Virus record (IMG/VR): IMGVR_UViG_3300026094_000052
Location: 1 to 20,042 of that record
DNA: 20,042 nt
Origin: a virus
Strand: one strand, 5' to 3'
Shown: one piece after another, positions 1,772-16,799 of the stretch
How the letters are laid out: each line of letters begins with the position of its first letter
Numbering within the stretch: position 1 is the stretch's first letter
Position numbers and translations under genes: made by a program
The notes under the pieces: model-generated
Database searches by the model: none
What the model was told of the DNA's origin: nothing
The model's input: the letters and a program-made list of their open reading frames with translations, nothing else

Positions 1772-3847
1772 ATGGCAATTAAGATTCAAGGCGATACCGT
1801 CATATTTGATGACAAGGTATTTCAAGTAGGTTCAGGTACCACAGCAGAACGACCAGAATCACCACAGGTTGGAATGATTCGGTTTAATACAGAACTTAAT
1901 TCACTGGAGCAGTATAACGGTACCGAATGGGTTGGACTTATCGGTTCTGACTCTGCCGATAATATTGGTGAGTTTACTCTGACAGAATCTGGTGGCACAA
2001 TTTTCAGTTCAGAGGCAGGTACCGGCGACGAGGGTTCTGGTAACTTTTTTGCTGGACAGTCTGCCGGACTCTGTAATACAACCGGTTCACACAATACCTT
2101 CATCGGTTGCTTTGCCGGACTCAACAACACCACTGGTGACAACAACAACTTCTTTGGTAGTAATGCCGGACTCAACAACACCGCTGGTGACCATAATAAC
2201 TTCTTTGGTAATAGTGCCGGAGTCTCCAATACAAGCGGTGCATACAATAACTTCATTGGTCGCCTTGCCGGACTTGGAAATACAACTGGTGACCACAACA
2301 ATTTCTTTGGTTCGAGCGCTGGAATTTGTAATACAGAAGGTAGACATAATAATTTCATTGGTAGCCAAGCCGGATGTGGCAATATAAGCGGTGATCACAA
2401 TACCTTCATTGGGTTTCGTGCCGGATGCTCTAATACAACCGGGTCGGACAATACCTTTATTGGACAGGTTGCCGGATTCTCCAACACAGCCGGTTGCCAT
2501 AATGCCTTTATTGGCAACCAGTCCGGAGCTGGTAATACAACCGGTTCACACAATACCTTCTTTGGTTACCGTGCCGGATGCAAAAATACAACCGGTTCAC
2601 ACAACACCTTTATTGGACAGGTTGCCGGATTCTCCAACACAGCCGGTTGCCATAATGCCTTTATTGGCAACCAGTCCGGGTTTAACAACACTACTGGCAT
2701 CGATAACAACTTCTTTGGTAGATCCGCTGGATGTTCCAATACAACCGGCTCGAATAACAACTTTTTTGGTAGATCCGCTGGATGTTCCAATACAACCGGC
2801 TCGAATAACAACTTTTTTGGTCAAACCGCTGGATTCCTCAATACAACTGGTTTTAACAATAATTTCCTTGGTGATAGTGCTGGAATCTTCAGTAAAACAG
2901 GCTCAGACAATAACTTCTTTGGTACTTTAGCGGGAGCCTTAAATGACACCGGTTCATATAATAACTTCTTTGGTAATTTAGCTGGACGCTCCAATAATGA
3001 CGGCTCATATAATACCTTCATCGGTAATAATGCCGGTCGTTACAATAGTGGCGGCTCATATAATACCTTCATCGGTAATGATGCCGGGTTTAATAGCACT
3101 ACCGGTATTAATAACAACTTCTTTGGTAATGGGACTGGATGCAGTAATACAACCGGTTTTGATAACAGCTTCTTTGGTTCGGCTGCCGGATGCTCCAATA
3201 CAACCGGATCGGATAACAGCTTCTTTGGCCGCGCTGCCGGACTCTGTAATACAACCGGTTCTAATAATACGTTTATCGGTGATAATGCCGGAATATGCAA
3301 CACAACCGGTTCGTGTAATAACTTTATTGGTCAGTGCGCCGGACGTTATAATACAGGCGGTTCGAATAACTTAGCCTTCGGTCTCAATTCTGGTACTACA
3401 GGAATTACGCCAGATGGTCTTTTCAATTTAACGACCGAGTCCAATCGAATCATTATGGGCAACGCAGATCACACCTGCGCTCAGATCCAGGTCGGTTGGA
3501 CCGTTGTTTCAGATGTTCGTGATAAATGTGTATTTGGCACTGTTCCTCATGGTCGTGGATTCCTCGAAAAGATTAATCCGATCGAGTTCTCGTTTAAGGA
3601 TAGAAAAACCGATGAGATTACCGATCCGAACGGTAAAAGAAGATATGGGTTTTCTGCTCAGGACGTGCTTGAGGCAGAAGGCGATCATCCTGTAATAGTA
3701 TCGACAGAGAATAATGATAAACTTCAGATGACCAATGATCATCTAATTCCTGTTCTTGTAAACTCAATTAAAGAGATGTCATCAGAAATTGATAAAATGT
3801 CGTCAGAAATTCAAGAATTAAGAACAATGATTAATACAACCGAATAA
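1772..3847 (+). CDS. Long repeat-containing tail fibre with S74 self-cleaving chaperone (691 aa)
   Basis: The start follows AGAAGGA (about 11 bases upstream). Residues 1-58 form a known marine fibre entry module ('FQVGSGTTAERPESP', 'YNGTEWVGLIG'). Residues 100-541 are 26 consecutive units of exactly 17 residues with consensus x-x-N-T-T-G-S-x-N-N-F-F/I-G-x-x-A-G. Such short regular Gly/Asn repeats suggest a stacked beta-helical shaft, akin to trimeric autotransporter head repeats, although those have a different period. Residues 580-691 are an S74 chaperone with SDVRDK (Ser580, Lys585 as cleavage dyad), 'RRYGFSAQDVLEAE', and a closing coiled coil rich in 'SSEI'. Self-cleavage before Ser580 would leave a 579-residue mature fibre. 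Nineteen of the 26 units contain an N-X-S/T motif, and the array holds 16 cysteines, unusual for a phage fibre. The fibre role is confident; the receptor is unknown. Confidence 0.88.
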   Translation: MAIKIQGDTVIFDDKVFQVGSGTTAERPESPQVGMIRFNTELNSLEQYNGTEWVGLIGSDSADNIGEFTLTESGGTIFSSEAGTGDEGSGNFFAGQSAGLCNTTGSHNTFIGCFAGLNNTTGDNNNFFGSNAGLNNTAGDHNNFFGNSAGVSNTSGAYNNFIGRLAGLGNTTGDHNNFFGSSAGICNTEGRHNNFIGSQAGCGNISGDHNTFIGFRAGCSNTTGSDNTFIGQVAGFSNTAGCHNAFIGNQSGAGNTTGSHNTFFGYRAGCKNTTGSHNTFIGQVAGFSNTAGCHNAFIGNQSGFNNTTGIDNNFFGRSAGCSNTTGSNNNFFGRSAGCSNTTGSNNNFFGQTAGFLNTTGFNNNFLGDSAGIFSKTGSDNNFFGTLAGALNDTGSYNNFFGNLAGRSNNDGSYNTFIGNNAGRYNSGGSYNTFIGNDAGFNSTTGINNNFFGNGTGCSNTTGFDNSFFGSAAGCSNTTGSDNSFFGRAAGLCNTTGSNNTFIGDNAGICNTTGSCNNFIGQCAGRYNTGGSNNLAFGLNSGTTGITPDGLFNLTTESNRIIMGNADHTCAQIQVGWTVVSDVRDKCVFGTVPHGRGFLEKINPIEFSFKDRKTDEITDPNGKRRYGFSAQDVLEAEGDHPVIVSTENNDKLQMTNDHLIPVLVNSIKEMSSEIDKMSSEIQELRTMINTTE
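2453..2526 (+). repeat. 74-bp perfect direct repeat, copy 1 (copy 2 at 2606-2679)
   Basis: Bases 2453-2526 and 2606-2679 are identical. They are offset by 153 bases, exactly three 51-bp units. They encode 'TFIGQVAG' and 'FSNTAGCHNAFIGNQSG'. This points to a recent in-register duplication or gene conversion. Confidence 0.88.
2606..2679 (+). repeat. 74-bp perfect direct repeat, copy 2
   Basis: This is identical to bases 2453-2526. The flanking units differ, so the duplicated block was about one and a half repeat units long or has been partly overwritten since. Confidence 0.88.
2714..2815 (+). repeat. Two identical 51-bp units in tandem
   Basis: Bases 2714-2764 and 2765-2815 are identical and encode the same 17-residue unit (GRSAGCSNTTGSNNNFF) twice. 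A single-unit duplication this exact indicates very recent slippage or unequal recombination. Confidence 0.9.
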
Positions 3848-3855
3848 TATTATAA

Positions 3856-3884
3856 TTTACATCACTTGCTATATGTGGTATAAT
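3856..3884 (+). promoter_or_regulatory. Sigma70-type promoter with extended -10
   Basis: TTTACA (3856-3861) is followed after exactly 17 bases by TATAAT (3879-3884), and TG at 3876-3877 gives an extended -10 (TGGTATAAT). Transcription would start near 3891, about 25 bases before the ATG at 3917. The region is AT-rich, so chance is not excluded, but the match in both boxes plus spacing is close to ideal. It differs in type from the TATAAATA late boxes elsewhere in the window and would let the host polymerase transcribe the glycosyltransferase/sulfotransferase genes. Confidence 0.62.
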
Positions 3885-3897
3885 ATATACTATTATA
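3879..3897. repeat. Inverted repeat over the -10 box and start site
   Basis: TATAATA (3879-3885) and TATTATA (3891-3897) are perfect inverted copies separated by five bases. They cover the -10 box and probable start point. It could be an operator-like site, but all-A/T palindromes are frequent in AT-rich gaps, and the hairpin would be too weak for a terminator. Confidence 0.3.
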
Positions 3898-3916
3898 GCA
3901 AAAATGGTCATATATT

Positions 3917-4567
3917 ATGGAAGAAGTATTAATAGCTACACCGTGTCTTGACCAAAAGGTTGATGCATACTTTGTCGACAGCTTATCAGAGTCTATAAAA
4001 CTCGGTATAAAATATGATTTAAATATTAGGTGTACCTTTCTTGCAAACGAGAGTATTCTTCCGATGGCAAGGAATGAATTACTGAATCTTGCATATCAAC
4101 AAGAATATGATACGGTTGTTTTTATTGATGATGACGAATGTTGGGGTGCACAAACGTTAATCGATATTATTTTATCTGAAAAGGATGTTGTCACCGTACC
4201 TGTCGTAAATAAAAGTGATGGTGGGAATGCATATAATATCTGGCTTCCTGACGTAAAGGACAGGGTTATAGATTCTGATGATGGATATATCCAGGTGGGA
4301 AAAACGGGAACCGGGTTTCTCAAGTTATCAAAAAATACTATCTCCGCTTTATGGAAATCAAATGACAGTATTGAATTTAGAGGTAATATTCTAAAAAATA
4401 TCTGTGAGTATACATATAATGACGGTAGTTTTGTAGGAGAAGATATTACACTTTCGAATAAGATTAAAAAATTAGGGTATGACATTTGGTGTAATCCATA
4501 CCATACTGTTTCTCATATTGGCAATAAAATGTATCAAGGCGACTTTAAGTTGAAACATAAACTATGA
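3917..4567 (+). CDS. GT-A-fold glycosyltransferase-like protein (216 aa)
   Basis: The N-terminal 'EEVLIATPC' strand and 'LPMARNELLNLA' are followed by 'YDTVVFIDDDE' (Asp71-Asp73), a DXD-type metal/nucleotide-sugar site of GT-A glycosyltransferases. Later 'GKTGTGFLKLSK', 'VGEDITLSNKIKKLG' (Glu175, Asp176, candidate acidic catalytic region) and 'SHIGNKMYQG' (His200) follow the usual order of GT2-like enzymes ('GED...G...IW..P...H.G'). At 216 residues it is compact, with no signal peptide or membrane segment, so it would act in the host cytoplasm. It is the first gene after the sigma70-type promoter, has a poor ribosome site, and overlaps the next gene by ATGA. It probably transfers a sugar from a nucleotide donor; donor and acceptor are unknown. 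Family confidence is good, exact activity low. Confidence 0.78.
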   Translation: MEEVLIATPCLDQKVDAYFVDSLSESIKLGIKYDLNIRCTFLANESILPMARNELLNLAYQQEYDTVVFIDDDECWGAQTLIDIILSEKDVVTVPVVNKSDGGNAYNIWLPDVKDRVIDSDDGYIQVGKTGTGFLKLSKNTISALWKSNDSIEFRGNILKNICEYTYNDGSFVGEDITLSNKIKKLGYDIWCNPYHTVSHIGNKMYQGDFKLKHKL

Positions 4568-5469
4568 AAGAATCAAAATACAGCATTTTTCATGTACAAG
4601 GCGGTATTGGAAAACACATTGCAGCCACCGCAGTTGCAAAGGCAATTACGAATAATTATCCCGATCGTAAACTCATAGTAGTTTGCGCGTATCCAGAGAT
4701 CTTTATTAATCTGGGGTTTGTAGATCGAGTATATCAGATAGGCGCAACGCAGTATTTTTATCAAGAATACGTCCAGAATAAGGATTCAATTCTGTTTCAC
4801 AACGAACCATATTATACAACGAACCACATCCATGCTCGTAAAAAATTAATTGAGAATTGGTGTGACATGTATGGCATTACGTATTCTGGTGAAAAGCCTC
4901 ATCTTAAATTTAATAGGCTTCAGTATAATCTGTCGAAGGATTTTTGGAGTCGAGAAAAACCATTGATGATTCTTCATACAAACGGAGGTCTCATGACCAA
5001 GGATGCAAAACCGTATTCGTGGACACGAGACATGCCGGTTGAGATTGGTCAAGAAATTGTTAACCATTACAAGAAGGACTACCATATCTTTCAGCTCACG
5101 AAACTAAACTCACCTAAATTAAAAGATACCGAACATGTCTTTGCTACGCAGGGACAGACACTTTCGTTGATGGAATACTTTAGTATTATTTTGCATTCAG
5201 AGAAAAGAGTCCTAATTGATTCATGCGTACAACACGCGTGTGCGGCACTTGACAAAAAATCGACGGTGCTTTGGAACGGAACAAGTCCCAATGTGTTTGG
5301 TTACGATTTGCATGATAACATTAAGACTGATGTGCCATACGATTTTAAATTGCCTGGAAGTTATCTATTTGACTTTGACTTTAATGGCAATGAGGTTGAA
5401 TATCCATTTGCCGATGACGTGCAACCTTTTGATATAGATAAAATTATTGAATCTGTTGATAATCAATAA
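4564..5469 (+). CDS. GT9/heptosyltransferase-like protein (301 aa)
   Basis: The start overlaps the previous stop (ATGA), indicating translational coupling. Residues 9-60 read 'FHVQGGIGKHIAATAVAKAI' and later 'LIVVCAYPEIFINLG', like the N-terminal Rossmann domain of ADP-heptose:LPS heptosyltransferases (family GT9), where a G-x-G-D/x loop and 'yP...i.vv' are typical; Lys17 stands where many GT9 enzymes have Asp. Residues 215-247 ('RVLIDSCVQHACAALDKKS', then 'NGTSPNVFGY') match the C-terminal nucleotide-binding part of the same family, where 'D-T/S-x-x-x-H-x-A-A-A-L-G' is characteristic (Asp219, His224). The protein is therefore a two-domain GT-B-type enzyme, slightly shorter than bacterial heptosyltransferases. 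It probably adds a second sugar after the GT-A enzyme. Substrate is unknown, and loss of the usual Asp could mean a changed donor or weak activity. Confidence 0.68.
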   Translation: MKESKYSIFHVQGGIGKHIAATAVAKAITNNYPDRKLIVVCAYPEIFINLGFVDRVYQIGATQYFYQEYVQNKDSILFHNEPYYTTNHIHARKKLIENWCDMYGITYSGEKPHLKFNRLQYNLSKDFWSREKPLMILHTNGGLMTKDAKPYSWTRDMPVEIGQEIVNHYKKDYHIFQLTKLNSPKLKDTEHVFATQGQTLSLMEYFSIILHSEKRVLIDSCVQHACAALDKKSTVLWNGTSPNVFGYDLHDNIKTDVPYDFKLPGSYLFDFDFNGNEVEYPFADDVQPFDIDKIIESVDNQ

Positions 5470-5482
5470 AGGATTGCCATAA

Positions 5483-6409
5483 ATGAAGGAAATGATTGCT
5501 GAAATTATGCGTGAGGAAATGATGCGAGACTCAAAAGACTATTATTTTATGGCGGGGTTGCCAAGATCGGGAAGTACACTACTTTCTGCCATTCTAAATC
5601 AGAATCCAAAGTTTTATTCTGGGCCAAGTTCTCCGGTTACAGGACTTATGTTTATGCTTGAGAACACGCTTAACCAGGATGAGCTATTTAAGGCATATCC
5701 CAAGAACGAGCAGGCTGCGCGGATAATCTCTAATGTAATTCGTGATTATTATAGTGATGTCGAAGAGTCCGTTATTTTTGATAAAAATCGATCATGGGTC
5801 AATAGAATTCATTATATTTCTGGTTATATTGGTGTTGAACCAAAAATTATTTGCCCAGTAAGAAATCTTGATGAAATTTTTACATCGTTTATTACAATGC
5901 ATCGTCGTAACCCATACGAGGTAAATGGTAGAATTAATTTTATCGACGAGATGTTAGTTAAAAGTAATATACCTTTGACTGATGACAATCGGTGTCAGTT
6001 TCTCGCAAGTGATAATGGCATTGTAGGGCAGAGTTATAATGGAATTAAGCAAGCATTAATCCAAGGATATCAGAGGTATATTCATTTTATTGAATACGAT
6101 GATTTAATTAACGAACCAGAAAACACAATTAAAAAATTATATGACTTTCTTGATGAAGAGTATTATGATCATGACTTTAAAAATCTTGAAAATATTCATC
6201 AAGAGGCCGATTCGTCGGTATATGGGTTTACGGATATGCATGATGTAAGAAAGGAACTTGAAAAAACATCACCCGACCCAACAGAAATTCTCTCTGAGTT
6301 TATTACTAATCAATGTAAAAATGCGGAATTTTGGAGAGATTTAGATGAAATTGATACAGCTAATAATGACAATTCGGACGAAACCAATTCAACATTTATA
6401 GGAGCATAG
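5483..6409 (+). CDS. PAPS-dependent sulfotransferase-like protein (308 aa)
   Basis: Residues 21-34 ('YFMAGLPRSGSTLL') are the 5'-phosphosulfate-binding loop of P-loop sulfotransferases, with the invariant Arg-Ser-Gly-Ser-Thr. 'CPVRNLDEIFTSFI' provides the 3'-phosphate site, with Arg127 and Ser135 eight residues apart as in the family. 'VIFDKNRSW' (98-105) and 'IEYDDLINEP' with 'LYDFLDEEYY' match later conserved parts. The family moves sulfate from PAPS to hydroxyl groups of sugars, lipids or tyrosines. The length is normal for a soluble bacterial enzyme, with no membrane anchor. The start at 5483 follows AAAGGA by nine bases; in-frame ATGs at 5492 and nearby are alternatives. It follows two glycosyltransferase-like genes, so a sulfated sugar is the simplest product. 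Family is confident, acceptor unknown. Confidence 0.85.
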   Translation: MKEMIAEIMREEMMRDSKDYYFMAGLPRSGSTLLSAILNQNPKFYSGPSSPVTGLMFMLENTLNQDELFKAYPKNEQAARIISNVIRDYYSDVEESVIFDKNRSWVNRIHYISGYIGVEPKIICPVRNLDEIFTSFITMHRRNPYEVNGRINFIDEMLVKSNIPLTDDNRCQFLASDNGIVGQSYNGIKQALIQGYQRYIHFIEYDDLINEPENTIKKLYDFLDEEYYDHDFKNLENIHQEADSSVYGFTDMHDVRKELEKTSPDPTEILSEFITNQCKNAEFWRDLDEIDTANNDNSDETNSTFIGA

Positions 6410-6411
6410 AA

Positions 6412-6666
6412 ATGGAAGAACTAAACGAAGTACAGAAAACAATCAAGGCAGCCCGCGATAGCGTATGGGTAATCGAAAGCACGATTGAACAGATTGATGG
6501 TGGTGACGAATTTACCGAGGAATTTTATAATTTAATTGACAGAAACGTCGGGCATCTAAAAAACGTTGTTGCTAGAACTGAGATAACAGAGTCTGATGAG
6601 GATATCACCGACCTTAATGCAGCAATTACGGCTGGTGAGACAAGGTTGTCCGCCTATAAGGAGTAA
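6412..6666 (+). CDS. Small helical protein of unknown function (84 aa)
   Basis: A strong AGGAG (6400-6404) precedes the ATG by seven bases and lies in the last codons of the sulfotransferase gene, so the two are co-translated. The product is acidic and predicted helical from its heptad-like spacing ('LNEVQKTIKAARDSVWVIE'). Its C-terminal half ('NVGHLKNVVARTEITESDED' then 'LNAAITAG') echoes the end of the 83-residue protein at 961-1212. I recognise no family. It is the last gene of the sigma70-promoter unit and is followed by the tandem late boxes, so it could belong to either the modification genes or the fibre helpers. Confidence 0.7.
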   Translation: MEELNEVQKTIKAARDSVWVIESTIEQIDGGDEFTEEFYNLIDRNVGHLKNVVARTEITESDEDITDLNAAITAGETRLSAYKE

Positions 6667-6677
6667 TCCGTATTTGA

Positions 6678-6685
6678 TATAAATA
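6678..6685 (+). promoter_or_regulatory. Late promoter box 1 (TATAAATA)
   Basis: This exact T4 late consensus TATAAATA lies in the 67-base gap after the 84-residue gene, 14 bases upstream of a second identical box. T4-like late promoters need only this -10-like element plus phage sigma and sliding-clamp factors. It would drive the 677-residue gene and those downstream. Confidence 0.65.
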
Positions 6686-6691
6686 ATTTTG

Positions 6692-6699
6692 TATAAATA
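6692..6699 (+). promoter_or_regulatory. Late promoter box 2 (TATAAATA)
   Basis: A second exact TATAAATA in the same gap, 34 bases before the ATG at 6734, leaves room for a start near 6706-6711 and a short leader. Its downstream bases ACAGT match those after the box at 1208. Of the two boxes this is the better placed. Confidence 0.72.
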
Positions 6700-6733: not shown

Positions 6734-8767
6734 ATGTCAGATCTTCCTGATCTTCCGCTTGAGGAACTTATTAATCGAGAATTAGGTAAAAATTCTCGAG
6801 AAAAGATTAATGAAATTGTTCGTTTCATTAATAATATTGATGAGCTTCTTCCGCCAGGACCACCCGGACCTCCGGGGCCAGAAGGTGATCCCGGTAAGGA
6901 CCTTAATATACTTCTTAATGTAATTGGGTTTTCGGAAGACGCAAGCGGATTTCCTGATACTGCTGAACTTGGCAATGCATGGTTACTTGTCGGTGATGGG
7001 AGTCAGGAAGATGCTGAGGTTTATATTTGGGTCGGAGATCAGTGGGAATTTGCATTTGAGTTTACTGTTCAGCCATTAGATCCATTTCTTAATGTACTTT
7101 ATGTTACTAAGAATGGAAGCGATGATCAATATGATGGATTTTCACCAGAAAAATCTTTTTTTACAATCGGTGCGGCCCTTCAAGCAGCTAGTGAACTTGA
7201 TACCCCCGTAAGTATAAAGGTCTATCCCGGTACATATGTTGAGGATGGCAATTTAGAAATTCCCCCTAACTGTTCGCTTATCTCTGATAGCGGTCAATAT
7301 GTAACAAATATAGTTGCCTCACAGATATGTCGCGATGAATTTCGTAATATGTTTCTTGTGAATTCTGGTTGTTATGTACAAGGATTTACATTTAGAAATC
7401 AAAAGATAGACAATTTTAATGACCCCTCTGGCGGATTTGCAATTGCCTTTGCCCCTGGTGCTACAATTATCCGAACTCCTTATATTCGTGATTGTAGTCA
7501 GGTTAGTAATTATGAAGGAGATGCAATTACAAATGCTTTAGAACAAATTCCTGACGGCTTTTCATTTGATAATGATAATTATACAGTTGAACCTAATCCT
7601 CAGGTAGGAGCCGGAGGAGGGGTGATTCTTGTTGACCGAGCAGTATTAAATCCAAATTCCATTTTTCCAGGTATGTTATCGTTTGGCGCAACACCTAGAT
7701 CACCAAACGGTCTAGGTTACGTGGTAAAAAATGGCGGCTACATGAACGGCATCAGTTCAATTTCAATCTTTACTCAATGTGGATTCTATGCGTTAAATGG
7801 TGGGCAGCTAAGTTTGAATAACTCGGCTACACAGTTCGGAGATGTATCAATTCGTGCAAGAGGATTTACATGGGTCGTAAGACCGTTGGATTCAACAGAT
7901 ACACATAAATCAGATACGGCCGCAAATTTAATTCTTAATAATCAAGATGTAATTATTGATGATATGTGGGATGCTCTTGTTGGTGAATATGGTGCATTGG
8001 TAAACATACCCGAACAAGAAGAATCGTTCAAAAGTGTTGCTAATAATCTATGTAGGGCACTTAGATTTGATTTACGAGACGGTGGTGACGAGGTTACAAA
8101 GTCGTTTACTCTTACTCGATTTGATTATCAGGCAGAGTATGTATTTGAATCAGAATTAAAGGATCCTTATATTTTTTCGTGGGAATTTATTAGAGATCGG
8201 ATTAATACTCTTCTATCGGGCGATTCAGACTCACAATCAGCAGTAAATGGGTTAATTAATACCGTACTTATTGGTACTATAAATGGTGCGCCTCCAACAG
8301 AAAACGTATCGTCTGTTGAGGGCGACCCAGATTCTGAGCTCTCAGGATTTATTGGTGCAAATCTCGATGGATCTACTCCGATTATTCTTGCTGAAGATAC
8401 GTTACTCCTCTGGCAATATGATGAGGAATATGATATATGGGAAGACATAGGATTAACTCAAAAAATTAGATTTGGATCAATTGTCGAAAGCCTTGCCCAT
8501 CAATTTAATAATGCCGGTGCAGGAGTTAACTCAAATGCTCTTCCATTAAACGTAGGTAAACCGGGACAAAATCGAGACGTGCCTTTTACAGTACTTCAAC
8601 AAAATTTTGGCCGAGTAAGATGGTCCGGTTCAGACGAACGAAATAATCAGTACTTTGCCGGTGGCACAAGAATTAATGGCGTTACTGGTCGTCTTGAAGG
8701 CACACCATTTACCAGCGGTGTTAGACAAATTGCCCGAAGGATTGCTAATTCTCGTGGATTGATTTAA
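6734..8767 (+). CDS. Virion structural protein with collagen-like stretch and beta-helix (677 aa)
   Basis: An acidic helical N-terminus leads into five Gly-X-Y triplets at residues 42-56 (PGPPGPPGPEGDPGKD), a short collagen-like trimerising segment. Next come 'NAWLLVGDGS' and 'EVYIWVGDQWEF', a small module often joined to collagen stretches in phage fibres. Residues 121-185 read 'VLYVTKNGSDDQYDGFSPEK' and 'IKVYPGTYVEDGNLEI', the usual entry to a pectate-lyase-type right-handed beta-helix ('V.PGTY.E'). The C-terminus ('VLQQNFGRVRWSG', 'GVRQIARRIANSRGLI') is unlike S74 domains. By position it replaces T4 baseplate/fibre genes around 9-10, and similar proteins are, to my knowledge, virion components of marine T4-like phages. 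The start follows GGGG by five bases and two late boxes. A baseplate-to-fibre connector or beta-helical spike is likely; no enzymatic residues can be assigned. Confidence 0.78.
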   Translation: MSDLPDLPLEELINRELGKNSREKINEIVRFINNIDELLPPGPPGPPGPEGDPGKDLNILLNVIGFSEDASGFPDTAELGNAWLLVGDGSQEDAEVYIWVGDQWEFAFEFTVQPLDPFLNVLYVTKNGSDDQYDGFSPEKSFFTIGAALQAASELDTPVSIKVYPGTYVEDGNLEIPPNCSLISDSGQYVTNIVASQICRDEFRNMFLVNSGCYVQGFTFRNQKIDNFNDPSGGFAIAFAPGATIIRTPYIRDCSQVSNYEGDAITNALEQIPDGFSFDNDNYTVEPNPQVGAGGGVILVDRAVLNPNSIFPGMLSFGATPRSPNGLGYVVKNGGYMNGISSISIFTQCGFYALNGGQLSLNNSATQFGDVSIRARGFTWVVRPLDSTDTHKSDTAANLILNNQDVIIDDMWDALVGEYGALVNIPEQEESFKSVANNLCRALRFDLRDGGDEVTKSFTLTRFDYQAEYVFESELKDPYIFSWEFIRDRINTLLSGDSDSQSAVNGLINTVLIGTINGAPPTENVSSVEGDPDSELSGFIGANLDGSTPIILAEDTLLLWQYDEEYDIWEDIGLTQKIRFGSIVESLAHQFNNAGAGVNSNALPLNVGKPGQNRDVPFTVLQQNFGRVRWSGSDERNNQYFAGGTRINGVTGRLEGTPFTSGVRQIARRIANSRGLI

Positions 8768-8781
8768 TAAACTTATTTTTT

Positions 8782-8798
8782 GGAGACAAATGTAAATG
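8782..8798 (+). promoter_or_regulatory. Ribosome binding site followed by a start-stop (ATGTAA) and the true ATG
   Basis: GGAG (8782-8785) is followed four bases later by ATG-TAA (8790-8795) and directly by ATG at 8796, the start of the 142-residue gene. The first ATG gives a one-codon reading frame; only 8796 leads into a gene. Initiation at the first ATG might reduce translation of the second. Confidence 0.4.
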
Positions 8799-9224
8799 GA
8801 TCCCATTATTACAGATCAAGCACCATCAGCAAAACCATTTGCTGTGTCACAATTTCTTACAACAGCGTATAATGATATTATTGTTGTTCGTGGGTTTAAT
8901 GTACCTGAAGTAGGATTTTCTGCCGATAGACGTGATGTTCCTGGTGTTGCAGAAATTTCATCACCACTTATTCTTGCAAATAATACGGGTTCGGCAAAGA
9001 CTGTTAGTGTAAGAATTCAAAGAGGTGGAGCAAATTTTATTATTGTAAATGATATAATTGTTGAGGCAAATGATGTTGTTTATTTGCCATTAAATGGTCA
9101 ATTTCTTTTATCGGATACCAATGATAGACTTCAAGCAGTTGCTGATGCCAATGGCGCCGTAACTGCGCATATCTCGTATACACAAGGCCAGGCGGAATTA
9201 AATAATCCTCTCGGTGATAACTAA
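8796..9224 (+). CDS. Small beta-rich virion protein (142 aa)
   Basis: The sequence is almost wholly beta-strand in character: 'LTTAYNDIIVVRGFNVPE', 'TVSVRIQRGGANFIIVNDII', 'VVYLPLNGQFLLSD', 'RLQAVADANGAVTAHISYTQ'. This order (strand on time-invariant T/Y residues, 'LANNTGSAKTVSVRI', 'L-x-L-x-G-x-F-x-L', 'AxANGAVxxHISY') is that of small structural proteins encoded among fibre genes of many marine phages, probably a jelly-roll-like decoration or fibre-joint protein. No signal peptide or catalytic motif is present. It sits between the beta-helix protein and the 819-residue fibre, overlapping the latter by one base (TAATG). The name is by resemblance only; a role in attaching the following fibre is inference. 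Confidence 0.66.
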   Translation: MDPIITDQAPSAKPFAVSQFLTTAYNDIIVVRGFNVPEVGFSADRRDVPGVAEISSPLILANNTGSAKTVSVRIQRGGANFIIVNDIIVEANDVVYLPLNGQFLLSDTNDRLQAVADANGAVTAHISYTQGQAELNNPLGDN

Positions 9225-11683
9225 TGAAAACACAGAAACGTCTTAATGATAATATTATTGGACCGAGTAAAAAATACTCTACTCCAATTACTCTCGATCC
9301 TGCGTATTATGAAGGCGCTATCATTTATGCAGATGGCGAGTTATATTATTCAAATGGAGAGGTTTGGCAAAATCCCGCAATTGAACTACCGGATAATATT
9401 TGGGTAGGCGATATAGATCTAGAGAATGATACCAATAAATCACTAAGATTTCAAAGAAAAACAACCGCCGAAACCGATTCATTTACTGGTGAACCGGGAC
9501 AGGTCACAGTAGATACAACAAAAAACACGCTCGTGGTTCATGATGGTACTACAGGTGGTAGTACACTTGTATCTGAATTAGGTTCACAGTCGCTTTCAAA
9601 TAAAACGTTAAATCTGAGTGATACGACCATAACTGGAATCAATGGTGACGGACTTAATGTAAGTGAAGGCGAGCTAAATATTGACCGTACTGTAGTGGTT
9701 ACCACAGATAGCAATCAAACCATTACTGGTACAAAAACATTTAATTCGCAAATACTGTTAAATAATGCAAACGGAATTAGAACCAATCAGTCATCATTTA
9801 ATCTCATTCCTCAAAATGCAGTAAACGTAAATATCGCAAATGCTGCTACAAATATTTCCATTGCTTCCAGTGAAGGCGAGACGGTAATAAACAATAGTCT
9901 TGTAGTAGAAAAAGATCTTATTGTAAATGGTGATACCGTAACAACATCAACCGATATATTAATTTTAGAAGATAAGATTCTTTCTTTACTTAATCTTGAA
10001 GAATCAGGTGATCCAGAACCAACCGACGGTCTTGCAGACGGTGGTGGTATCGAATTAAACGGCACCACCGTAAAGGAATTTAAATGGTTCGATTCAACAG
10101 AGGCATGGACAAGTTCTGAAAATATTGATATTAACTCGGGTAAATCTTACTTAATTAATGGCGAGTCGGTATTATCCGAAAATACTCTTGAATCAGCTAT
10201 TACAGATTCCTCACTTACATCAGTCGGTACCTTAACAACCGGAACCTGGAATGCAACTGCAATTTCGTCTTTATACGGTGGTACAGGTCAGACAAGTTAT
10301 ATCGACGGTGAATTACTTATTGGTAATAGCGATGGTAATACTCTTGGTAAGGCTCGGCTTACAGAAGGTTCAGGTATTTCCATTTCCAATGGAAACGCTT
10401 CAATTACAGTATCCAATTCTGATCCTGGATCCGCGCAAAACATTTTTAAGAATATTGCGGACGAAACTGGCAATACACAGTTTTCTACGGAAACTAATAA
10501 CGATACAATCAGATTCGCTGGTAGTGGAACAGCATCTGTTGCGTTTAGTGAAGAAACCAATACTATAACAATTAATACACCTGAGGCAACACTTGCGCCC
10601 GCTGAAAACGGTGGGATAAATGTGGTCGAAGGTACAATAAGTGTTGATAATACTGTTGTTCGTACCTCTGGTGATCAAACCATAGATGGCGTAAAAACAT
10701 TTAATAGTTCCATAGATGGAGATATTAATGGCAATGCCGGCACAGCTACGGCGCTTGAAACTGCTCGTACAATTAACGGTGTGTCATTTGACGGTACAGA
10801 AGATATTACTGTTTCAACGACAACAACCGAATCTCTTACGGCAGGGGACGGTCTTACCGGAGGTTCATTTGATGGTACCACAGCAGTAACCTTTGCAAAC
10901 GGTGATAAAGGTTCTGATCAGAGTATTTTTAAGACAATTCGTGACGAATCCGATGCCAATCAAATTACTGCAAACGGAAATTCTGATTTTATTAAGTTTG
11001 TCGGTGGTACCGGTACAGATATTACGTTTAATTCAAGTGAAAACACTATTACGATTGAATCCACTGGCGAAGAAGTTCCTGAGCCTGACGTATTTAAAAA
11101 TATCGGGGATTCTAATGGCGCAGTTCAATTTTTTGCCGAAGGTGCAAATGACACATTATTATTTGATGGCGAGGGTGATACTAACGTCACTTTTGTTCAA
11201 GACACAGAAAATAATACAAAAACTGTAGTTATATCCACTGATTCAAGCATTGATATAACCGATAATAATACCACAAATTCCGATTTATATCCAGTCTTTA
11301 GTAACGAAACTGTCGGTAATATTACTGGATTAAATGTAAATTCACAAAGGCTCACATTTAATCCATCAACTGGCACGCTTGCTGCTACAAACTTTAATTC
11401 ACTTTCTGATGCTAGATACAAGACCAATATAAATAAAATTCGTAACCCTCTTGGAACCATCGAAGAAATTGAGGGCGTGTCATTTAATTGGAAGGAAACC
11501 GGTGAACAATCAATTGGTTTTATTGCACAGGAAATTGAAAAGGTTCTTCCAGAACTAGTATATTCCGATGATAGTGGAAGAAAATTGCTGTCATATGGTA
11601 ATATTACAGCATTACTTCTTGAGGCAATTAAACAGCAGCAAGTGATGATTAATCAATTAATGAACGATAGGTCTGATAAATAA
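9224..11683 (+). CDS. Large modular tail fibre with S74 self-cleaving chaperone (819 aa)
   Basis: The start overlaps the previous stop (TAATG). Residues about 86-112 ('GEPGQVTVDTTKNTLVVHDG') are a widespread fibre module also seen at the base of tropism-determinant proteins. The middle carries two 'D/NQTI-x-G-x-KTFNS' units, 'GTLTTGTWNATAI', 'YGGTGQTSY', and three related units of about 50 residues opening with 'IFKNIAD', 'IFKTIRD' and 'VFKNIGD'. Residues 728-819 are an S74 domain: SDARYK (Ser728, Lys733) is the cleavage dyad, followed by 'SIGFIAQEIEKVLPELV' and a C-terminal 'ALLLEAIKQQQVMINQL' coiled coil. A mature 727-residue trimeric fibre is expected. 'GNAGTATALETARTING' with 'FDGTEDI' recurs in the next gene, showing shared modules. 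It is probably a main long or side fibre in the place of T4 genes 11-12; the receptor is unknown. Confidence 0.87.
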   Translation: MKTQKRLNDNIIGPSKKYSTPITLDPAYYEGAIIYADGELYYSNGEVWQNPAIELPDNIWVGDIDLENDTNKSLRFQRKTTAETDSFTGEPGQVTVDTTKNTLVVHDGTTGGSTLVSELGSQSLSNKTLNLSDTTITGINGDGLNVSEGELNIDRTVVVTTDSNQTITGTKTFNSQILLNNANGIRTNQSSFNLIPQNAVNVNIANAATNISIASSEGETVINNSLVVEKDLIVNGDTVTTSTDILILEDKILSLLNLEESGDPEPTDGLADGGGIELNGTTVKEFKWFDSTEAWTSSENIDINSGKSYLINGESVLSENTLESAITDSSLTSVGTLTTGTWNATAISSLYGGTGQTSYIDGELLIGNSDGNTLGKARLTEGSGISISNGNASITVSNSDPGSAQNIFKNIADETGNTQFSTETNNDTIRFAGSGTASVAFSEETNTITINTPEATLAPAENGGINVVEGTISVDNTVVRTSGDQTIDGVKTFNSSIDGDINGNAGTATALETARTINGVSFDGTEDITVSTTTTESLTAGDGLTGGSFDGTTAVTFANGDKGSDQSIFKTIRDESDANQITANGNSDFIKFVGGTGTDITFNSSENTITIESTGEEVPEPDVFKNIGDSNGAVQFFAEGANDTLLFDGEGDTNVTFVQDTENNTKTVVISTDSSIDITDNNTTNSDLYPVFSNETVGNITGLNVNSQRLTFNPSTGTLAATNFNSLSDARYKTNINKIRNPLGTIEEIEGVSFNWKETGEQSIGFIAQEIEKVLPELVYSDDSGRKLLSYGNITALLLEAIKQQQVMINQLMNDRSDK

Positions 11684-12810
11684 TGTCAACTCAGTTAACA
11701 ACAAGAATATCCGAAGGCGGTACTGGTGTAACGGTAAAAGATGCGCCGCTCACAAATTCGGAAGTTGATAATAATTTTATTTCTCTTAAAGACAATAAAC
11801 TTGAGGCTTCGAGTAATTTAAGCGATTTAACTAACGTTACGGCAGCCAGAAGTAATCTTAATGCTGTATCTACGGATGGTTCAAACGCCTCCGGTACGTG
11901 GTCAATATCTGTTAGCGGCAATGCCGCGACCGCAACGGCACTTCAAAACTCCGTTAAAATTAATAATATTGATTTTGATGGGACTGAAGATATAGATGTT
12001 GTTACTGGAATAATTTCATCTGGTTTTGGCATATCAAATTTTGCTGACTGGGATACTCAGACTGATATTACAATAGCAATTGACTCATCCGAAATTGCTA
12101 CAATTAAATCTGATCAGACAATTTCCGGTACAAAAACTTTTTCTGAGCCTATTACTCTTTCTAAAGAGACCACTGAAACAGATCATGCGGTTCGTGCTGA
12201 TCGTACCATTTCAGCCGGAGACGGTTTAACGGGTGGTGGAAATTTAACTGCCGACAGAACAATAGATGTTGATAACACCGTTGTTCGAACCACTCGTAAG
12301 ATAAGTACGGGAGAGGGTATTAGCGGCGGCGGTGATTTAGATTCAGATTTAACTCTATCTGTGGACGATACCGTTGTTCGTACTACAGGTACTCAAGAAC
12401 TCAGCGCTACCCAAATAGATTCACTGGGTGTGGGTACTCCTGCTTCAGAAGTTTCAGGTGAAATTAGGGCAACGGATAATATTACGGCATTTTATTCCTC
12501 TGATAGAAGACTGAAGGAAAATATAACTGAAATTGATTCTGCGTTGGGTAAAATTGCAAATATTTCTGGTGTTAATTTTGATTGGACAGACGAGGAATTA
12601 GACCGTCGTGGAGGCATCGATGATCTTTTTGTCCGTAAAAAATCTGTTGGTGTTATTGCCCAAGAAATTGAATCTGTTCTTCCAGAAGCTGTCGGTACAA
12701 GAAATGACGGATATAAAGGTGTTAGATATGAACTTATTGTACCACTTTTGATTCAAGCAATCAAAGAACAACAAGAGGTGATCGAATCTATTATTGATAA
12801 GATTCGATGA
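11683..12810 (+). CDS. Short tail fibre with S74 self-cleaving chaperone (375 aa)
   Basis: The ATG overlaps the previous stop (TAATG), so it is likely coupled to the 819-residue fibre. The N-terminus '[20 protein letters not shown]' followed by 'NNFISL' is a typical virion-attachment start of marine phage fibres. The shaft has two 'ISxGxGxxGGGxL' units joined by 'DDTVVRTT' linkers (roughly residues 180-245). Residues 273-375 form the S74 domain with the classic SDRRLKENI motif (Ser273, Lys278), '[18 protein letters not shown]', '[20 protein letters not shown]'. After cleavage a 272-residue fibre would remain. Modules shared with the larger fibre upstream ('AATATAL', 'FDGTEDI') suggest that the two arose by duplication and trimming, and they may compete for or stack on the same site. 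Fibre identity is confident, exact role open. Confidence 0.87.
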
Positions 12811-12814
12811 GAAT

Positions 12815-13723
12815 ATGTCCTTAAAAAGTGGTGAAATATCAGTATCTGAAATTAATGCTGCGAGAGGTGTAGCTGAGACAGCAGAAACTTCGTTTAATGA
12901 CCTTAAGGAATTTTCTGACGGCGCAAGAGAAACAATACCAAATGAGGAATTTACATTATCAGATGTAATTAAATTTTATCCGGTATCTGATTTAAAATCC
13001 GATGGTACAAATTTTCCTATTAATATAGAGGAAAGACCAGAGTATCTTGATCCCGATATTATTACCATTGAAGTGTATGAGAATGAAGGAATCTATATTC
13101 TTGGCCCTATTACCGATATGACGAGTTTTTTCCATCCTATTCGAGGGCAAAATCCTGACATTGGGCTTTGGGATGTAAGTACCGTACATACAATGAGAAA
13201 TGCATTTAAATTTTCCATTATGAAGAATATTGATTTTTCTGAGTGGGACACATCAAATGTAACTGATATGTTTGAAATGTTTGGACGTACTAACAGATTT
13301 GTTGGCACAGGTTTAGCTAATTGGGACACATCGTCTGTCACTGATATGGGATTTATGTTTTTTAGAGCATTAGAATTTAACGAGGATATAGGCAGTTGGG
13401 ATACGTCATCTGTTACCAATATGGAAAGAATGTTTATTGAGGCGCTTACATTTAATCAAGATATAGGTGATTGGGATACATCGAATGTTACTGATATGAC
13501 CTCTATGTTTGCTAACGCATTCGAATTTAATCAAGATATAGGTGATTGGAACACATCGTCTGTCACTGATATGGAAGGAATGTTTAGTGGTGCAAGAGAC
13601 TTTAATCAAGATCTAACCGGATGGAACGTTGTTAATATTCCAGAAAAACCTGAACGGTTTGCTAATAATTCTGCATTTGAGGAATCGAACTATCCCATCT
13701 GGGGTACAACAGGTTCACCATAA
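12815..13723 (+). CDS. BspA-type leucine-rich-repeat virion protein (302 aa)
   Basis: Residues 1-33 ('[19 protein letters not shown]') resemble the short N-terminal segment ('SGxISxSxI') that anchors several marine phage virion proteins. Residues from about 99 to 271 are BspA/DUF285-type repeats, consensus W-D-T-S-S-V-T-D-M-x-x-M-F-x-x-A-x-x-F-N-Q-D-I-G, with Trp at 119, 144, 170, 195, 220, 245 and 270, a period of 25 (once 26). The family occurs on surface proteins of bacteria and protists and mediates binding. There is no signal peptide or membrane anchor, consistent with assembly on the virion. I chose ATG 12815; an in-frame TTG at 12794 would add seven residues but overlaps the S74 fibre. 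The ribosome site is weak. It occupies the place of T4 wac (fibritin) just before gene 13. A receptor-binding or whisker-like role is inferred. Confidence 0.8.
13169..13624 (+). repeat. 75-bp tandem coding repeats (25-residue BspA units)
   Basis: About six units run between Trp119 and Trp270 of the BspA-type protein, with a 25-residue period and a single 26-residue unit. The last three full units are closest ('[16 protein letters not shown]' and variants), with long identical DNA stretches such as TTTAATCAAGATATAGGTGA at two places. Internal duplication at the C-terminal side seems the most recent. Confidence 0.85.
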
Positions 13724-13744: not shown

Positions 13745-14488
13745 ATGATTCCTAATTCACGACAAAGTCTGATTGATTACTGTCTCCGCAATCTTGGTGC
13801 ACCGGTACTTGAAATTAATGTCGATGAGGATCAAATCGAGGACCGTGTCGACGAGGCACTTCAGTTCTATCGTGAGTATCATTCTGATGCGATCTATCAT
13901 GACTTCTTTAAGCATGAGATTACTCAGGAAGATCGTGACAATCAGTATATTCCAATTCCTGATGCTCTTATTAATGTTGTAAAGGTTCTCCCGTTGTCGT
14001 ATGATAATGCGTCGGTATCGATGTTTGATGCACGATATCAGATGGCGCTAAACGATATGTACAACCTCGGTTTTGCCGGCAGTCTTTCGAATTATGTGCA
14101 TGTCCAGAATTATATCTCGACTGTCGATATGATGATTAATGGTACGCCGCAGGTTGAATTTAATCGTCATATGAACCGACTGTATCTGAATATTGATTGG
14201 GAATATAGACTTCAGGTTGGAGAGTATGTCGTGGTTGAAGGTTATCGTATTATTGACCCTAATGAACACACAGATATCTACAATGATATGTTTCTTAAGC
14301 GTTATCTTACCGCACTTATTAAGCGACAGTGGGGAATCAATCTTAAAAAATTTGAGGGGCTTGAACTTCCTGGTGGTATTACACTGAATGGACAACAAAT
14401 ATATGACGAGGCTACCGAGGAGATTCGTCAGGTTGAGGAAGAAATGCAACTGAAATATGAAATGCCTGCCAATTTTTTTGTAGGATAA
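13745..14488 (+). CDS. gp13: Neck protein gp13 (head completion)
   Basis: The N-terminus 'SRQSLIDYCLRNLGAPVLEI' and 'NVDEDQIEDRVDEALQFYRE' is the signature of T4-like gp13, which with gp14 forms the neck that closes the filled head and lets the tail join. 'YHDFFKHEITQEDRDNQYIP' and 'ALIKRQWGINLKKFEG' later in the chain agree with the family. It has 247 residues against 309 in T4, as is usual for shorter marine members. AGGA nine bases before the ATG at 13745 supports the start. Gene order 13-14-15 downstream confirms the assignment. Nothing is odd except a 12-base identical sequence at its two ends, noted separately. Confidence 0.93.
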   Translation: MIPNSRQSLIDYCLRNLGAPVLEINVDEDQIEDRVDEALQFYREYHSDAIYHDFFKHEITQEDRDNQYIPIPDALINVVKVLPLSYDNASVSMFDARYQMALNDMYNLGFAGSLSNYVHVQNYISTVDMMINGTPQVEFNRHMNRLYLNIDWEYRLQVGEYVVVEGYRIIDPNEHTDIYNDMFLKRYLTALIKRQWGINLKKFEGLELPGGITLNGQQIYDEATEEIRQVEEEMQLKYEMPANFFVG

Positions 14489-14494
14489 TACTAA

Positions 14495-15442
14495 ATGCCG
14501 ACCAATGTGTTCATCTCGCAATCGGTTCGATCGGAACAGATGTTATTCGAAGACATTGTGATCGAAGCACTCAAGATGTATGGACAGGATGTCGTATATC
14601 TTCCGCGAGAGGTTAAAATATCCGATGAGGTATTGAACGAAGAGTTTGCAAGTTTCCGTGCTGCATATACGATTGAGATGTATATTGCAAACACGGAAGG
14701 CTTTGAGGGCGACGGAAATCTTCTTTCTAAGTTCGGTCTTGAGATTCGCGATCAAGCAACGTTTATTGTATCAAGAAAACGTTTCTCTGAACTAGTTGAT
14801 ATTCAAGATAATGCCCTTTGTGAGGATCGCCCACGAGAGGGTGATCTCATTTACCTTCCTCTTTCGAACTCATTGTTCCAGATAAAGTTCGTTGAGCACG
14901 AACAACCATTCTATCAAATCAGCAATCTGCCGACATATGAGCTTCAATGCGAATTGTTCGAATATTCAAATGAAGATTTTAGTACTGGGATTGAAGCAAT
15001 TGATGATTTTCAAATGTACAATGGCACGAGATACGCGATTGAGGTGCAGGGCGGCGAAATTGGTTTTGCATACGGTGATGAAATCAAACAAACTGTTGAC
15101 GATACCGTTGATCCACCAATAGAGATTATCGGTCGAGTATCTGGCTTTAACGAGACTGATGAGGCAGGTGGTTTTGTTCAGAGAACCGCTGATTTGTATT
15201 TTGATCAATTGTATGTATCCGATGGTTCGCGTCCTCGTCTTCAGATGGGACAACCGCTTATTAACTCAACGCGTGATCATTCTGATTGGACAATTACTAA
15301 GATATATGATCTTGATGACGGTGATGAGTACGTATTCCCGTCGGATGAATTTGCCGATAATAGTACGTTCGAACTCGAGTCAGAACAGATTATTGACTTT
15401 TCAGAAATAAATCCATTCGGCGATCCAAGAGAGAATTCATAA
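14495..15442 (+). CDS. gp14: Neck protein gp14 (head completion)
   Basis: 'SVRSEQMLFEDIVIEALKMY' and 'GQDVVYLPREV' form the conserved N-terminus of T4-like gp14, the partner of gp13 in the neck. Further family parts are 'FGLEIRDQATFIVSRKRF', 'RPREGDLIYLPLSNSLFQIK' and 'FYQISNLPTYELQCELFEYS'. The protein has 315 residues compared with 256 in T4; the extra length lies mainly in the C-terminal half after about residue 190. The start is six bases after the gp13 stop, with AGGA nine bases upstream inside the gp13 end. The stop overlaps the gp15 start (TAATG), so 13-14-15 are translated as a unit. Confidence 0.93.
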   Translation: MPTNVFISQSVRSEQMLFEDIVIEALKMYGQDVVYLPREVKISDEVLNEEFASFRAAYTIEMYIANTEGFEGDGNLLSKFGLEIRDQATFIVSRKRFSELVDIQDNALCEDRPREGDLIYLPLSNSLFQIKFVEHEQPFYQISNLPTYELQCELFEYSNEDFSTGIEAIDDFQMYNGTRYAIEVQGGEIGFAYGDEIKQTVDDTVDPPIEIIGRVSGFNETDEAGGFVQRTADLYFDQLYVSDGSRPRLQMGQPLINSTRDHSDWTITKIYDLDDGDEYVFPSDEFADNSTFELESEQIIDFSEINPFGDPRENS

Positions 15443-16440
15443 TGTTTGATCAGTATTTTTACCATGAACATACACGAAGGGCCGTTTCTGTATTCGGCAC
15501 ACTTTTTAATAATATCAGTATTGTTAAACGTGACGGTTCCAATAAGGTACTGACAACCTCAAAGGTTCCTCTTTCGTATGGGCCAAGACAAAAGTTTCTT
15601 GCAAGAATTCGTCAAGAGGCAAATCTTGATGATCCAAAACTTGCAATTAAACTTCCTCGTATGTCGTTTGAAATTACCGATATCTCATACGATGAATCAA
15701 CTCGACTTGCTCGCGGTACACAATATAAAATACCAGGATCAAGTAATCAGTCGACGCGGACAATGTTCTATCCGTCTACGTATAGACTTTCGTTTGAACT
15801 GAACATTCTATCAAAACACACGGACGATGCTCTTCAGATACTTGAACAGATTCTTCCGTTTTTCCAACCCGAATATACTGTGACAGTAAACGAGGTTGAT
15901 AATAACTTTAAATCGGATATGCCGTTCACTCTTACTGGAGTGTCCATGGACGATGACTACGAGGGCGACCTTCTTTCAAGACGATCAATTATCTATACGC
16001 TCACATTTGAGACACGCGTTAAATATTATGGGCCACTTGATAGTGAGTCATCAATTATTCGTGAGGCAAAAACAAATTTATCTGATGTGGATATGACACC
16101 GACGGGAGAGCCATTCTCATCACAGAATCTTACAGTATCACCATCGGATGCAAATGAATCCGATGAGTTTACCGTGAATGTATCGTTTGATCCTAAGGTA
16201 TACGAGTCTGCAATACTTTCGTATGATACGGTAACAAATGGTCCGATTGTTGATTCCGAAACCTTGATCGGTCAGATATCTGGCGCGACTGCAGTTGTGT
16301 CTGGCGAACCTACTTCCGATTCAGTGACGGTGACGGTACCTGATGATAAGTTTGAGGTAGGCGAAATCGTGGTCGGTGCAACATCGGGTGCATCGTTCGT
16401 GATTACTGACATTGAACCAATATGGAATACGCTGTCATGA
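15442..16440 (+). CDS. gp15: Tail terminator / proximal sheath stabiliser gp15, with extra C-terminal domain
   Basis: Residues 1-205 carry the T4-like gp15 pattern: 'FDQYFYHEHTRRAVSVFGTL', 'FNNISIVKRDG', 'VPLSYGPRQKFLARIRQ', 'LPRMSFEITDISYDESTRLA', 'YRLSFELNILSKHTDDALQI', 'EQILPFFQPEYTVTVNEV'. gp15 caps the finished tail tube and sheath and binds the neck. At 332 residues it exceeds T4 gp15 (272). Residues about 215-330 look like an added beta domain with two related halves ('LIGQISGATAVVSGE' and 'IVVGATSGASFVITDIE'), a module also seen in other marine phage virion proteins. It overlaps gp14 by one base and gp16 by four. Core identity is confident; the role of the extension is unknown, possibly exposed at the neck. 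Confidence 0.92.
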   Translation: MFDQYFYHEHTRRAVSVFGTLFNNISIVKRDGSNKVLTTSKVPLSYGPRQKFLARIRQEANLDDPKLAIKLPRMSFEITDISYDESTRLARGTQYKIPGSSNQSTRTMFYPSTYRLSFELNILSKHTDDALQILEQILPFFQPEYTVTVNEVDNNFKSDMPFTLTGVSMDDDYEGDLLSRRSIIYTLTFETRVKYYGPLDSESSIIREAKTNLSDVDMTPTGEPFSSQNLTVSPSDANESDEFTVNVSFDPKVYESAILSYDTVTNGPIVDSETLIGQISGATAVVSGEPTSDSVTVTVPDDKFEVGEIVVGATSGASFVITDIEPIWNTLS

Positions 16441-16799
16441 GTAATGAAGAAAACGAGATTAATGACGACTACGACTACGCTCGTTCGAAATACTATAATC
16501 TTGCGGAAAAGGGTGACGAAGCCATTGATCTGATGCTCGACCTTGCTCGTGAGTCTGAACATCCTCGTGCATTTGAAGTACTGTCAAATATGCTGAAACA
16601 GAATGCCGAGGTCGCCGACCGATTGATGGACCTACAGAAGAAAAAGAAGGAAGTCCGTCTGATTGATCAGAAGCAGATACCTAATGGTAATATGACGCAA
16701 AATAATGTATACGTTGGATCTACAACCGACCTTCAACGCATGCTTCATAAACGTATGGACGAGAACTCAGTAATAGATCAAGACAGCGACGAAGAGTAA
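16437..16799 (+). CDS. gp16: Terminase small subunit gp16
   Basis: The gene lies between gp15 and the large terminase and is 120 residues, shorter than T4 gp16 (164). 'YYNLAEKGDEAIDLMLDLA' followed by 'SEHPRAFEVLSNMLKQNAEV' and 'LMDLQKKKKEVR' is the helical-hairpin oligomerisation core of T4-like small terminases, which form rings, bind viral DNA and stimulate the packaging ATPase. The first residues are acidic and disordered. I chose ATG 16437 because it overlaps the gp15 stop as ATGA, the usual junction in this cluster; an in-frame ATG at 16422 would add five residues. The stop overlaps the gp17 start (TAATG). Confidence 0.88.
   Translation: MSNEENEINDDYDYARSKYYNLAEKGDEAIDLMLDLARESEHPRAFEVLSNMLKQNAEVADRLMDLQKKKKEVRLIDQKQIPNGNMTQNNVYVGSTTDLQRMLHKRMDENSVIDQDSDEE

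Follow-up and report, generated by a model that had tools for sequence, protein, structure and literature searches.

A conserved glycosyltransferase and sulfotransferase cassette beside fibre genes of T4-like aquatic phages, a candidate pathway for a sulfated glycan

Why would a phage carry two glycosyltransferases and a sulfotransferase between its fibre genes? The question was raised by a phage contig of 20,042 bases (IMG/VR record IMGVR_UViG_3300026094_000052; this whole stretch is called the window here), which has T4-like neck, tail-sheath-stabiliser and terminase genes at 13745-18415. Four open reading frames (ORFs) lie between two of its fibre genes and are predicted to encode a GT-A fold glycosyltransferase (GTA), a GT9-fold glycosyltransferase (GT9), a sulfotransferase of the type using 3'-phosphoadenosine-5'-phosphosulfate (PAPS) as donor (SULT) and a small protein (Table 1). 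The block is kept across dozens of distinct viral contigs, which rules out chance, and since the enzymes are paired and conserved, the product is most likely a sulfated glycan, as judged from sequence. The cassette gives the impression of a genuine pathway, so far undescribed, by which either the fibres or the infected cell would receive a sulfated sugar. Our leading reading, held tentatively, is that T4-like aquatic phages conserve it as a separately transcribed unit for glycan sulfation, with the adjacent repeat fibre protein as its acceptor.

The four ORFs are closely coupled. GTA and GT9 overlap by ATGA at 4564-4567, 13 bp separate GT9 and SULT, and 2 bp separate SULT and the small gene. 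A preliminary description of this DNA had proposed these ORFs, their coupling and a setting between two fibre blocks; the coordinates, the overlap and the short gaps were all borne out, and both flanking genes were fibre-like, the first by Pfam and PHROG matches and the second by PHROG matches. No close DNA-level match to the window was found among phage records.

Table 1. Positions, strand and supporting evidence of the cassette genes, flanking fibre genes and transcription signals in the window.
Feature	Position	Strand	Evidence
Repeat fibre protein (NTTGS/NTFIG-type repeats), C-terminal S74 intramolecular chaperone	1772..3847	+	PF13884, PHROG
Sigma-70-type promoter TTTACA-N17-TATAAT, extended -10 TGG	3856..3884	+	11/12 matches
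Hairpin in fibre-GTA intergenic gap	3866..3901	+	z = -3.0
GT-A fold glycosyltransferase (GTA)	3917..4567	+	PHROG match, AlphaFold model, structure search, invariant motifs
GT9-fold glycosyltransferase (GT9)	4564..5469	+	Model, structure search, PF01075 matches among homologues
PAPS-type sulfotransferase (SULT, Sulfotransfer_3)	5483..6409	+	Pfam, PHROG, invariant PAPS-site residues
Small protein accompanying SULT	6412..6666	+	Linkage to sulfotransferase in relatives
Two T4-type late promoter matches TATAAATA	6678-6685, 6692-6699	+	Before second fibre gene, not cassette
Second fibre gene with collagen-like GPPGPPGPEGDPG stretch	6734..8767	+	Tail-fibre PHROGs, translation

Relatives were gathered using SULT, GTA, GT9 and the small protein as queries, and distinct loci were defined by clustering GT9 at 95% identity, giving 64 groups, 62 of them with enough flank to judge. 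In 60 of these 62 loci (40 of type I and 20 of type II) GT9 had a SULT gene no further than 3.5 kb away. In type I the genes run fibre-GTA-GT2(-methyltransferase)-GT9-SULT-small-(RfaE2/cupin)-(APS-kinase-like, for adenosine 5'-phosphosulfate kinase), often with gp13 next, and in type II they run fibre-SULT-one or two small ORFs-GT9, with another fibre-like gene after them in some loci; in L120 the type II cassette is flanked by fibre-like genes on both sides. A GT2 gene sits between GTA and GT9 in 35/37 distinct type I relatives. The window has neither this gene, whose place is taken by the overlapping GTA and GT9, nor the APS-kinase-like gene. Its lack of the GT2 gene, together with the ATGA overlap, marks the window as a reduced version of the type I cassette. 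The small protein also travels with the sulfotransferase: 30 of its 35 distinct homologues have one within 1.5 kb, while three of the others are at contig edges and one is inside a cassette upstream of GTA. At least 588 sulfotransferase relatives were present in IMG/VR.

A search of relatives for the same block near fibre genes, suggested in the preliminary description, showed that it recurs there. Among distinct loci, 16/30 of type I and 10/18 of type II have a homologue of the upstream fibre protein no more than 700 bp upstream of the cassette. In 20 large records the distance from SULT to a fibre gene was shorter than random placement would give (combined p 2.6e-9), a value that overstates the evidence, as records lacking a fibre match were excluded, some records may be close kin and fibres cluster in one region.

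The sulfotransferase is the best supported of the enzymes at sequence level. SULT matched PF13469 (7.4e-15, 56.2 bits against a cut-off of 27), PF00685 (4.1e-12) and phrog_27463 (2e-83). The PAPS site has both parts expected of the superfamily, a GLPRSGST loop for the 5'-phosphosulfate and Arg127 and Ser135 for the 3'-phosphate, and these two residues are invariant in 29 homologues. The earlier call of a P-loop sulfotransferase is thus confirmed, and the protein is predicted to transfer sulfate from PAPS. Its profile matched human TPST1 best among solved structures (8.6e-11). The Glu in the GEET stretch of TPST is catalytic; in the alignment the phage family has GPSS at this stretch, so the TPST catalytic Glu is missing. 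SULT also shows a weak local match (9e-5), spanning the PAPS loop, to the Nod-factor sulfotransferase NoeE, which sulfates a sugar, but it scores only 21 bits against the NCBIfam cut-off of 500 and its gene context is different. Elsewhere in its genome, L260 has a second, diverged sulfotransferase (5001-6136, 36% identity) with its own small protein, in the order small-SULT.

GTA gave weak sequence matches (phrog_1574, 2e-15) and no meaningful match to PDB in single-protein or profile searches, but its AlphaFold model (predicted local distance difference test, pLDDT, 88.6) has a GT-A fold. The nearest solved fold is STIV A197 (2c0n; VIA Z 18.3, 19% identity), likewise a viral single-domain GT-A enzyme, though from an archaeal virus, and the next neighbours are collagen glycosyltransferase domains, with many GT-A enzymes at Z 13-17. 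The acidic DXD-type metal motif, DDD at residues 71-73, is invariant in 25 homologues, as are E175/D176 (GED 174-176) and H200. Both the fold and the motif of the GT-A assignment made earlier were therefore upheld.

The second glycosyltransferase is more divergent. The GT9 model (pLDDT 81.8) matched GT9 enzymes over its whole length, with VIA Z values of 21.5 for 3tov (266 residues), 19.3 for WaaF, 18.6 for WaaC and 17.6 for TibC, a protein heptosyltransferase, and epimerase-type folds trailed at Z about 11, giving a GT-B fold of the GT9 type. By sequence, the window protein had no PF01075 match at E 1, whereas 21/27 homologues did (best 7e-4); single-protein and profile searches of PDB returned no meaningful match, and a search of 84,980 prokaryote genomes at pattern sensitivity returned 45 pattern matches and zero true relatives. 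The C-terminal DSxxQH motif is kept, with Asp219 and His224 invariant, and resembles the D-[ST]-G-L-x-H-like nucleotide-binding motif of WaaC, WaaF and TibC. In contrast, identity to these enzymes is only about 11%, and the GD-motif Asp of heptosyltransferases, which is catalytic in WaaC, is replaced. In a gap-free alignment the WaaF Asp, together with its WaaC equivalent, falls on Lys17, which is invariant in 28 sequences, so that the phage family reads GK. Since Asp219 and His224 are kept but Lys17 replaces the GD Asp, the window protein, on its model, is a GT9-fold enzyme whose catalytic site is altered, and a heptosyltransferase identity was not assigned. Of the previous proposal of a GT9/heptosyltransferase-like protein, the fold and the Asp219/His224 region stood, while the heptosyltransferase catalytic motif did not.

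Further genes of the relatives suggest how donors could be supplied. An APS-kinase-like gene was present in 23/38 type I relatives, and it strengthens the sulfated glycan put forward in the preliminary description, a proposal which still follows from enzyme family. This gene has a P-loop, matched PF01583 (27.2 and 49.9 bits against a cut-off of 21.1; 6/16 records above the cut-off) and a solved APS kinase (PDB 2yvu), but missed the NCBIfam curated cut-off, because of which a role in PAPS supply is given here as supported inference. In L002 (10030-10884) and its homologues the APS-kinase-like domain is fused to an NMN-adenylyltransferase-like domain, and the fusion is strongly conserved. Some relatives have an adenylyltransferase domain like RfaE domain II (RfaE2-like), and such a domain would suit a GT9-fold enzyme that uses an ADP-heptose-like donor. 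UDP-galactopyranose mutase and additional GT2/GT4 enzymes are encoded in some relatives, and in L151 a NodU-type carbamoyltransferase (8162-9844) immediately follows a type II cassette.

The cassette appears to have its own transcription signals. In the window a sigma-70-type promoter sits in the 69-base gap between the upstream fibre gene and GTA. After the relatives were made non-redundant, sigma-70-type sites (at least 10/12 matches) were found at the cassette start in 11/37 type I (1.1 expected) and 7/21 type II loci (0.4 expected), or 18/58 distinct upstream regions pooled against about 1.5 expected, with expectations taken from Markov-shuffled sequence. Perfect consensus sites, TTGACA-N17-TATAAT with differing spacers, occur between the fibre gene and SULT in L120 (5903-5952) and L229. 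The T4 late motif TATAAATA has the opposite distribution, being present at 13/37 fibre starts and 9/16 gp13 starts of relatives against about 1 expected; it lies upstream of 4/58 distinct cassettes versus 22/53 fibre and gp13 genes. In the window no exact TATAAATA was found upstream of GTA, so the cassette did not behave as a late transcription unit, and the four matches in the whole window are by themselves no more than chance. An apparent late promoter before SULT in 11 relatives was rejected, as this TATAAATA, at a near-fixed place, encodes DINK, a conserved peptide at the GT9 end. Strong hairpins (z below -2.5), several with T-runs, were detected in 11/17 type I fibre-GTA gaps tested (window included) and in 0/7 of type II. 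The contrast between a sigma-70-type promoter at the first cassette gene and a late motif at the fibre and neck genes is new here, and because of it the cassette is probably transcribed independently of the surrounding late genes. These signals suggest that the type I cassette is insulated from transcription of the fibre gene and that a host-type polymerase reads it. The preliminary description had overlooked the promoter and the hairpin, as well as the usually larger, conserved unit, the second gene order and the missing GD Asp.

How the enzymes could act together is proposed as follows. The GT-A and GT9-fold enzymes would add sugars one after the other, and the sulfotransferase would then move sulfate from PAPS onto the glycosylated product. 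Nucleotide sugars and PAPS would come from the host or from other phage enzymes, and larger relatives may use their own APS-kinase-like and RfaE2-like genes for the supply. If the acceptor is the neighbouring repeat fibre protein, virions would exit with sulfated, negatively charged fibres, which to our knowledge would be the first of their kind in phages. The repeat fibre protein directly upstream of the cassette has an S74 domain match exactly at the curated cut-off and a tail spike PHROG match (1.7e-45). Several points argue for it as the acceptor: the SULT-GT9 linkage, the fibre adjacency, the APS-kinase-like and RfaE2-like genes and the NoeE similarity and, by analogy, the fold kinship of GTA with STIV A197 and the resemblance of GT9 to the protein heptosyltransferase TibC. 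We know of no established acceptor of STIV A197. A more specific form of this reading, in which a dedicated sulfated glycan is put on the phage's own adhesive repeat fibres by a phage-specific GT9-fold enzyme with an altered site, is plausible and is put forward with still more reserve.

Four observations weigh against the fibre as acceptor. The nearest recognisable fibre was not immediately upstream in about half of the loci. Repeat-fibre homologues were found in 88 phage records against only 9 for sulfotransferase homologues, and since the fibre is so much commoner, the cassette is optional to it. Without the GD Asp, the chemistry or donor of GT9 may differ. The early-type sigma-70 promoter, which is not the late one of the fibre genes, would fit modification of the host surface at least equally well.

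That alternative is a real possibility, although less probable: the cassette would put a sulfated sugar on the host surface (lipopolysaccharide, LPS, or capsule) early in infection, blocking rival phages or re-adsorption of progeny, and the fibre neighbourhood would reflect joint exchange of receptor-binding and receptor-altering genes. It would account for the promoter before the cassette and for the hairpin that may insulate it from the fibre gene, and it is consistent with the action of the GT9 relatives WaaC and WaaF on LPS, with the mutase and the additional GT2/GT4 enzymes of some relatives, and with the sulfotransferase of cyanophage S-SRM01 lying in a sugar cluster (epimerase, glycosyltransferase) near a tail fibre gene. 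However, the cassette genes examined included no recognised flippase, polymerase, ligase or lipid-linked initiating enzyme, and no polysaccharide export gene either, the latter point being counted for the fibre; moreover, fibre adjacency is retained in two different gene orders, and a lytic phage would benefit for a single burst only. Position narrowly favours the fibre, while the early-type promoter favours the host surface.

It is improbable that the glycosyltransferases act separately and that SULT sulfates tyrosines of virion or host proteins, or some other acceptor in them that is not a sugar; the TPST1 match is in its favour, but the GPSS at the GEET position and the constant pairing with GT9, which suggests a sugar acceptor, are against it. 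Selfish or neutral cargo in an exchange hotspot of the fibre region, without a role in infection under most conditions, is similarly unlikely: cassette content is variable, as in the window without GT2 gene and kinase, and so is the region, but the active sites keep their core residues unchanged across 25-29 homologues, and gene order and promoters are conserved. Least probable is hypermodification of phage DNA with a sulfated sugar against host nucleases, for which DNA-modifying phage glycosyltransferases, an early-type promoter and a suggestion of nucleotides or proteins as possible phage sulfotransferase targets (PMC10829341) could be cited, since only 3/25 cassette-bearing records, which may be fragments, had a member of the thymidylate synthase/dCMP hydroxymethylase family, and the cassette adjoins fibre genes rather than DNA metabolism genes.

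SULT homologues were also found in cyanophages and marine phages, with identities of 52% (AG-345-L05), 41% (S-SKS1), 32% (S-SRM01) and 22% (S-SCSM1); their records are annotated merely as 'sulfotransferase' or not at all. A GT9 homologue adjoins the sulfotransferase of AG-345-L05, whereas S-SKS1, S-SRM01 and S-SCSM1 had no match to the window GT9 protein; S-SRM01 shares the neighbourhood of sugar genes and a tail fibre. Photosystem genes were present in 3/14 larger records, and cyanophages and marine single-cell phages make up the named relatives; some members of the cassette-bearing group, at least, therefore infect cyanobacteria.

In the literature, the function of phage sulfotransferases is described as unclear (PMC10580990), they are listed as auxiliary metabolic genes (PMC10829341, PMC13079714, PMC12285232), and cysC in phages is an unvalidated sulfur-assimilation gene (PMC12713726). 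Mycobacteriophages encoding glycosyltransferases bear glycans on virion proteins (Freeman et al. 2023, as cited in PMC12619734), but in that case the glycans sit on capsid and tail tube subunits, and the parts of PMC12619734 drawn on here mention no sulfate step. No published account linking a phage sulfotransferase with virion glycosylation or a fibre in such a cassette was found in the open-access literature searched. Phage sulfotransferases are usually filed as auxiliary sulfur-metabolism genes; here they point to surface-glycan chemistry, because of the constant glycosyltransferase pairing beside fibres and the sigma-70-type promoter. Such chemistry may govern phage-host recognition, and a concrete testable target, the fibre or the host surface, is now available for a widespread sulfotransferase family.

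Some minor observations concern the fibres and the rest of the window. The repeat fibre protein and its homologues have regular N-T-T-G repeat motifs that read as N-x-T sequons and may be glycosylated or merely structural. Collagen-like GPP or GxQ repeats occur in fibres near the cassette, in the second fibre gene of the window and in L007 (9382-10743); collagen glycosyltransferases are among the fold neighbours of GTA, and a 2-oxoglutarate-Fe(II) oxygenase, of the type that includes prolyl hydroxylases, is encoded in some relatives. For defence or counter-defence, PADLOC gave no meaningful match, with one weak P-loop match in the APS-kinase-like protein. At 12794-13723, directly before the gp13-like neck gene, the window encodes a protein with four DUF285 repeats (PF03382, 2e-122), a repeat type of bacterial surface proteins, and similar phage families have no assigned function.

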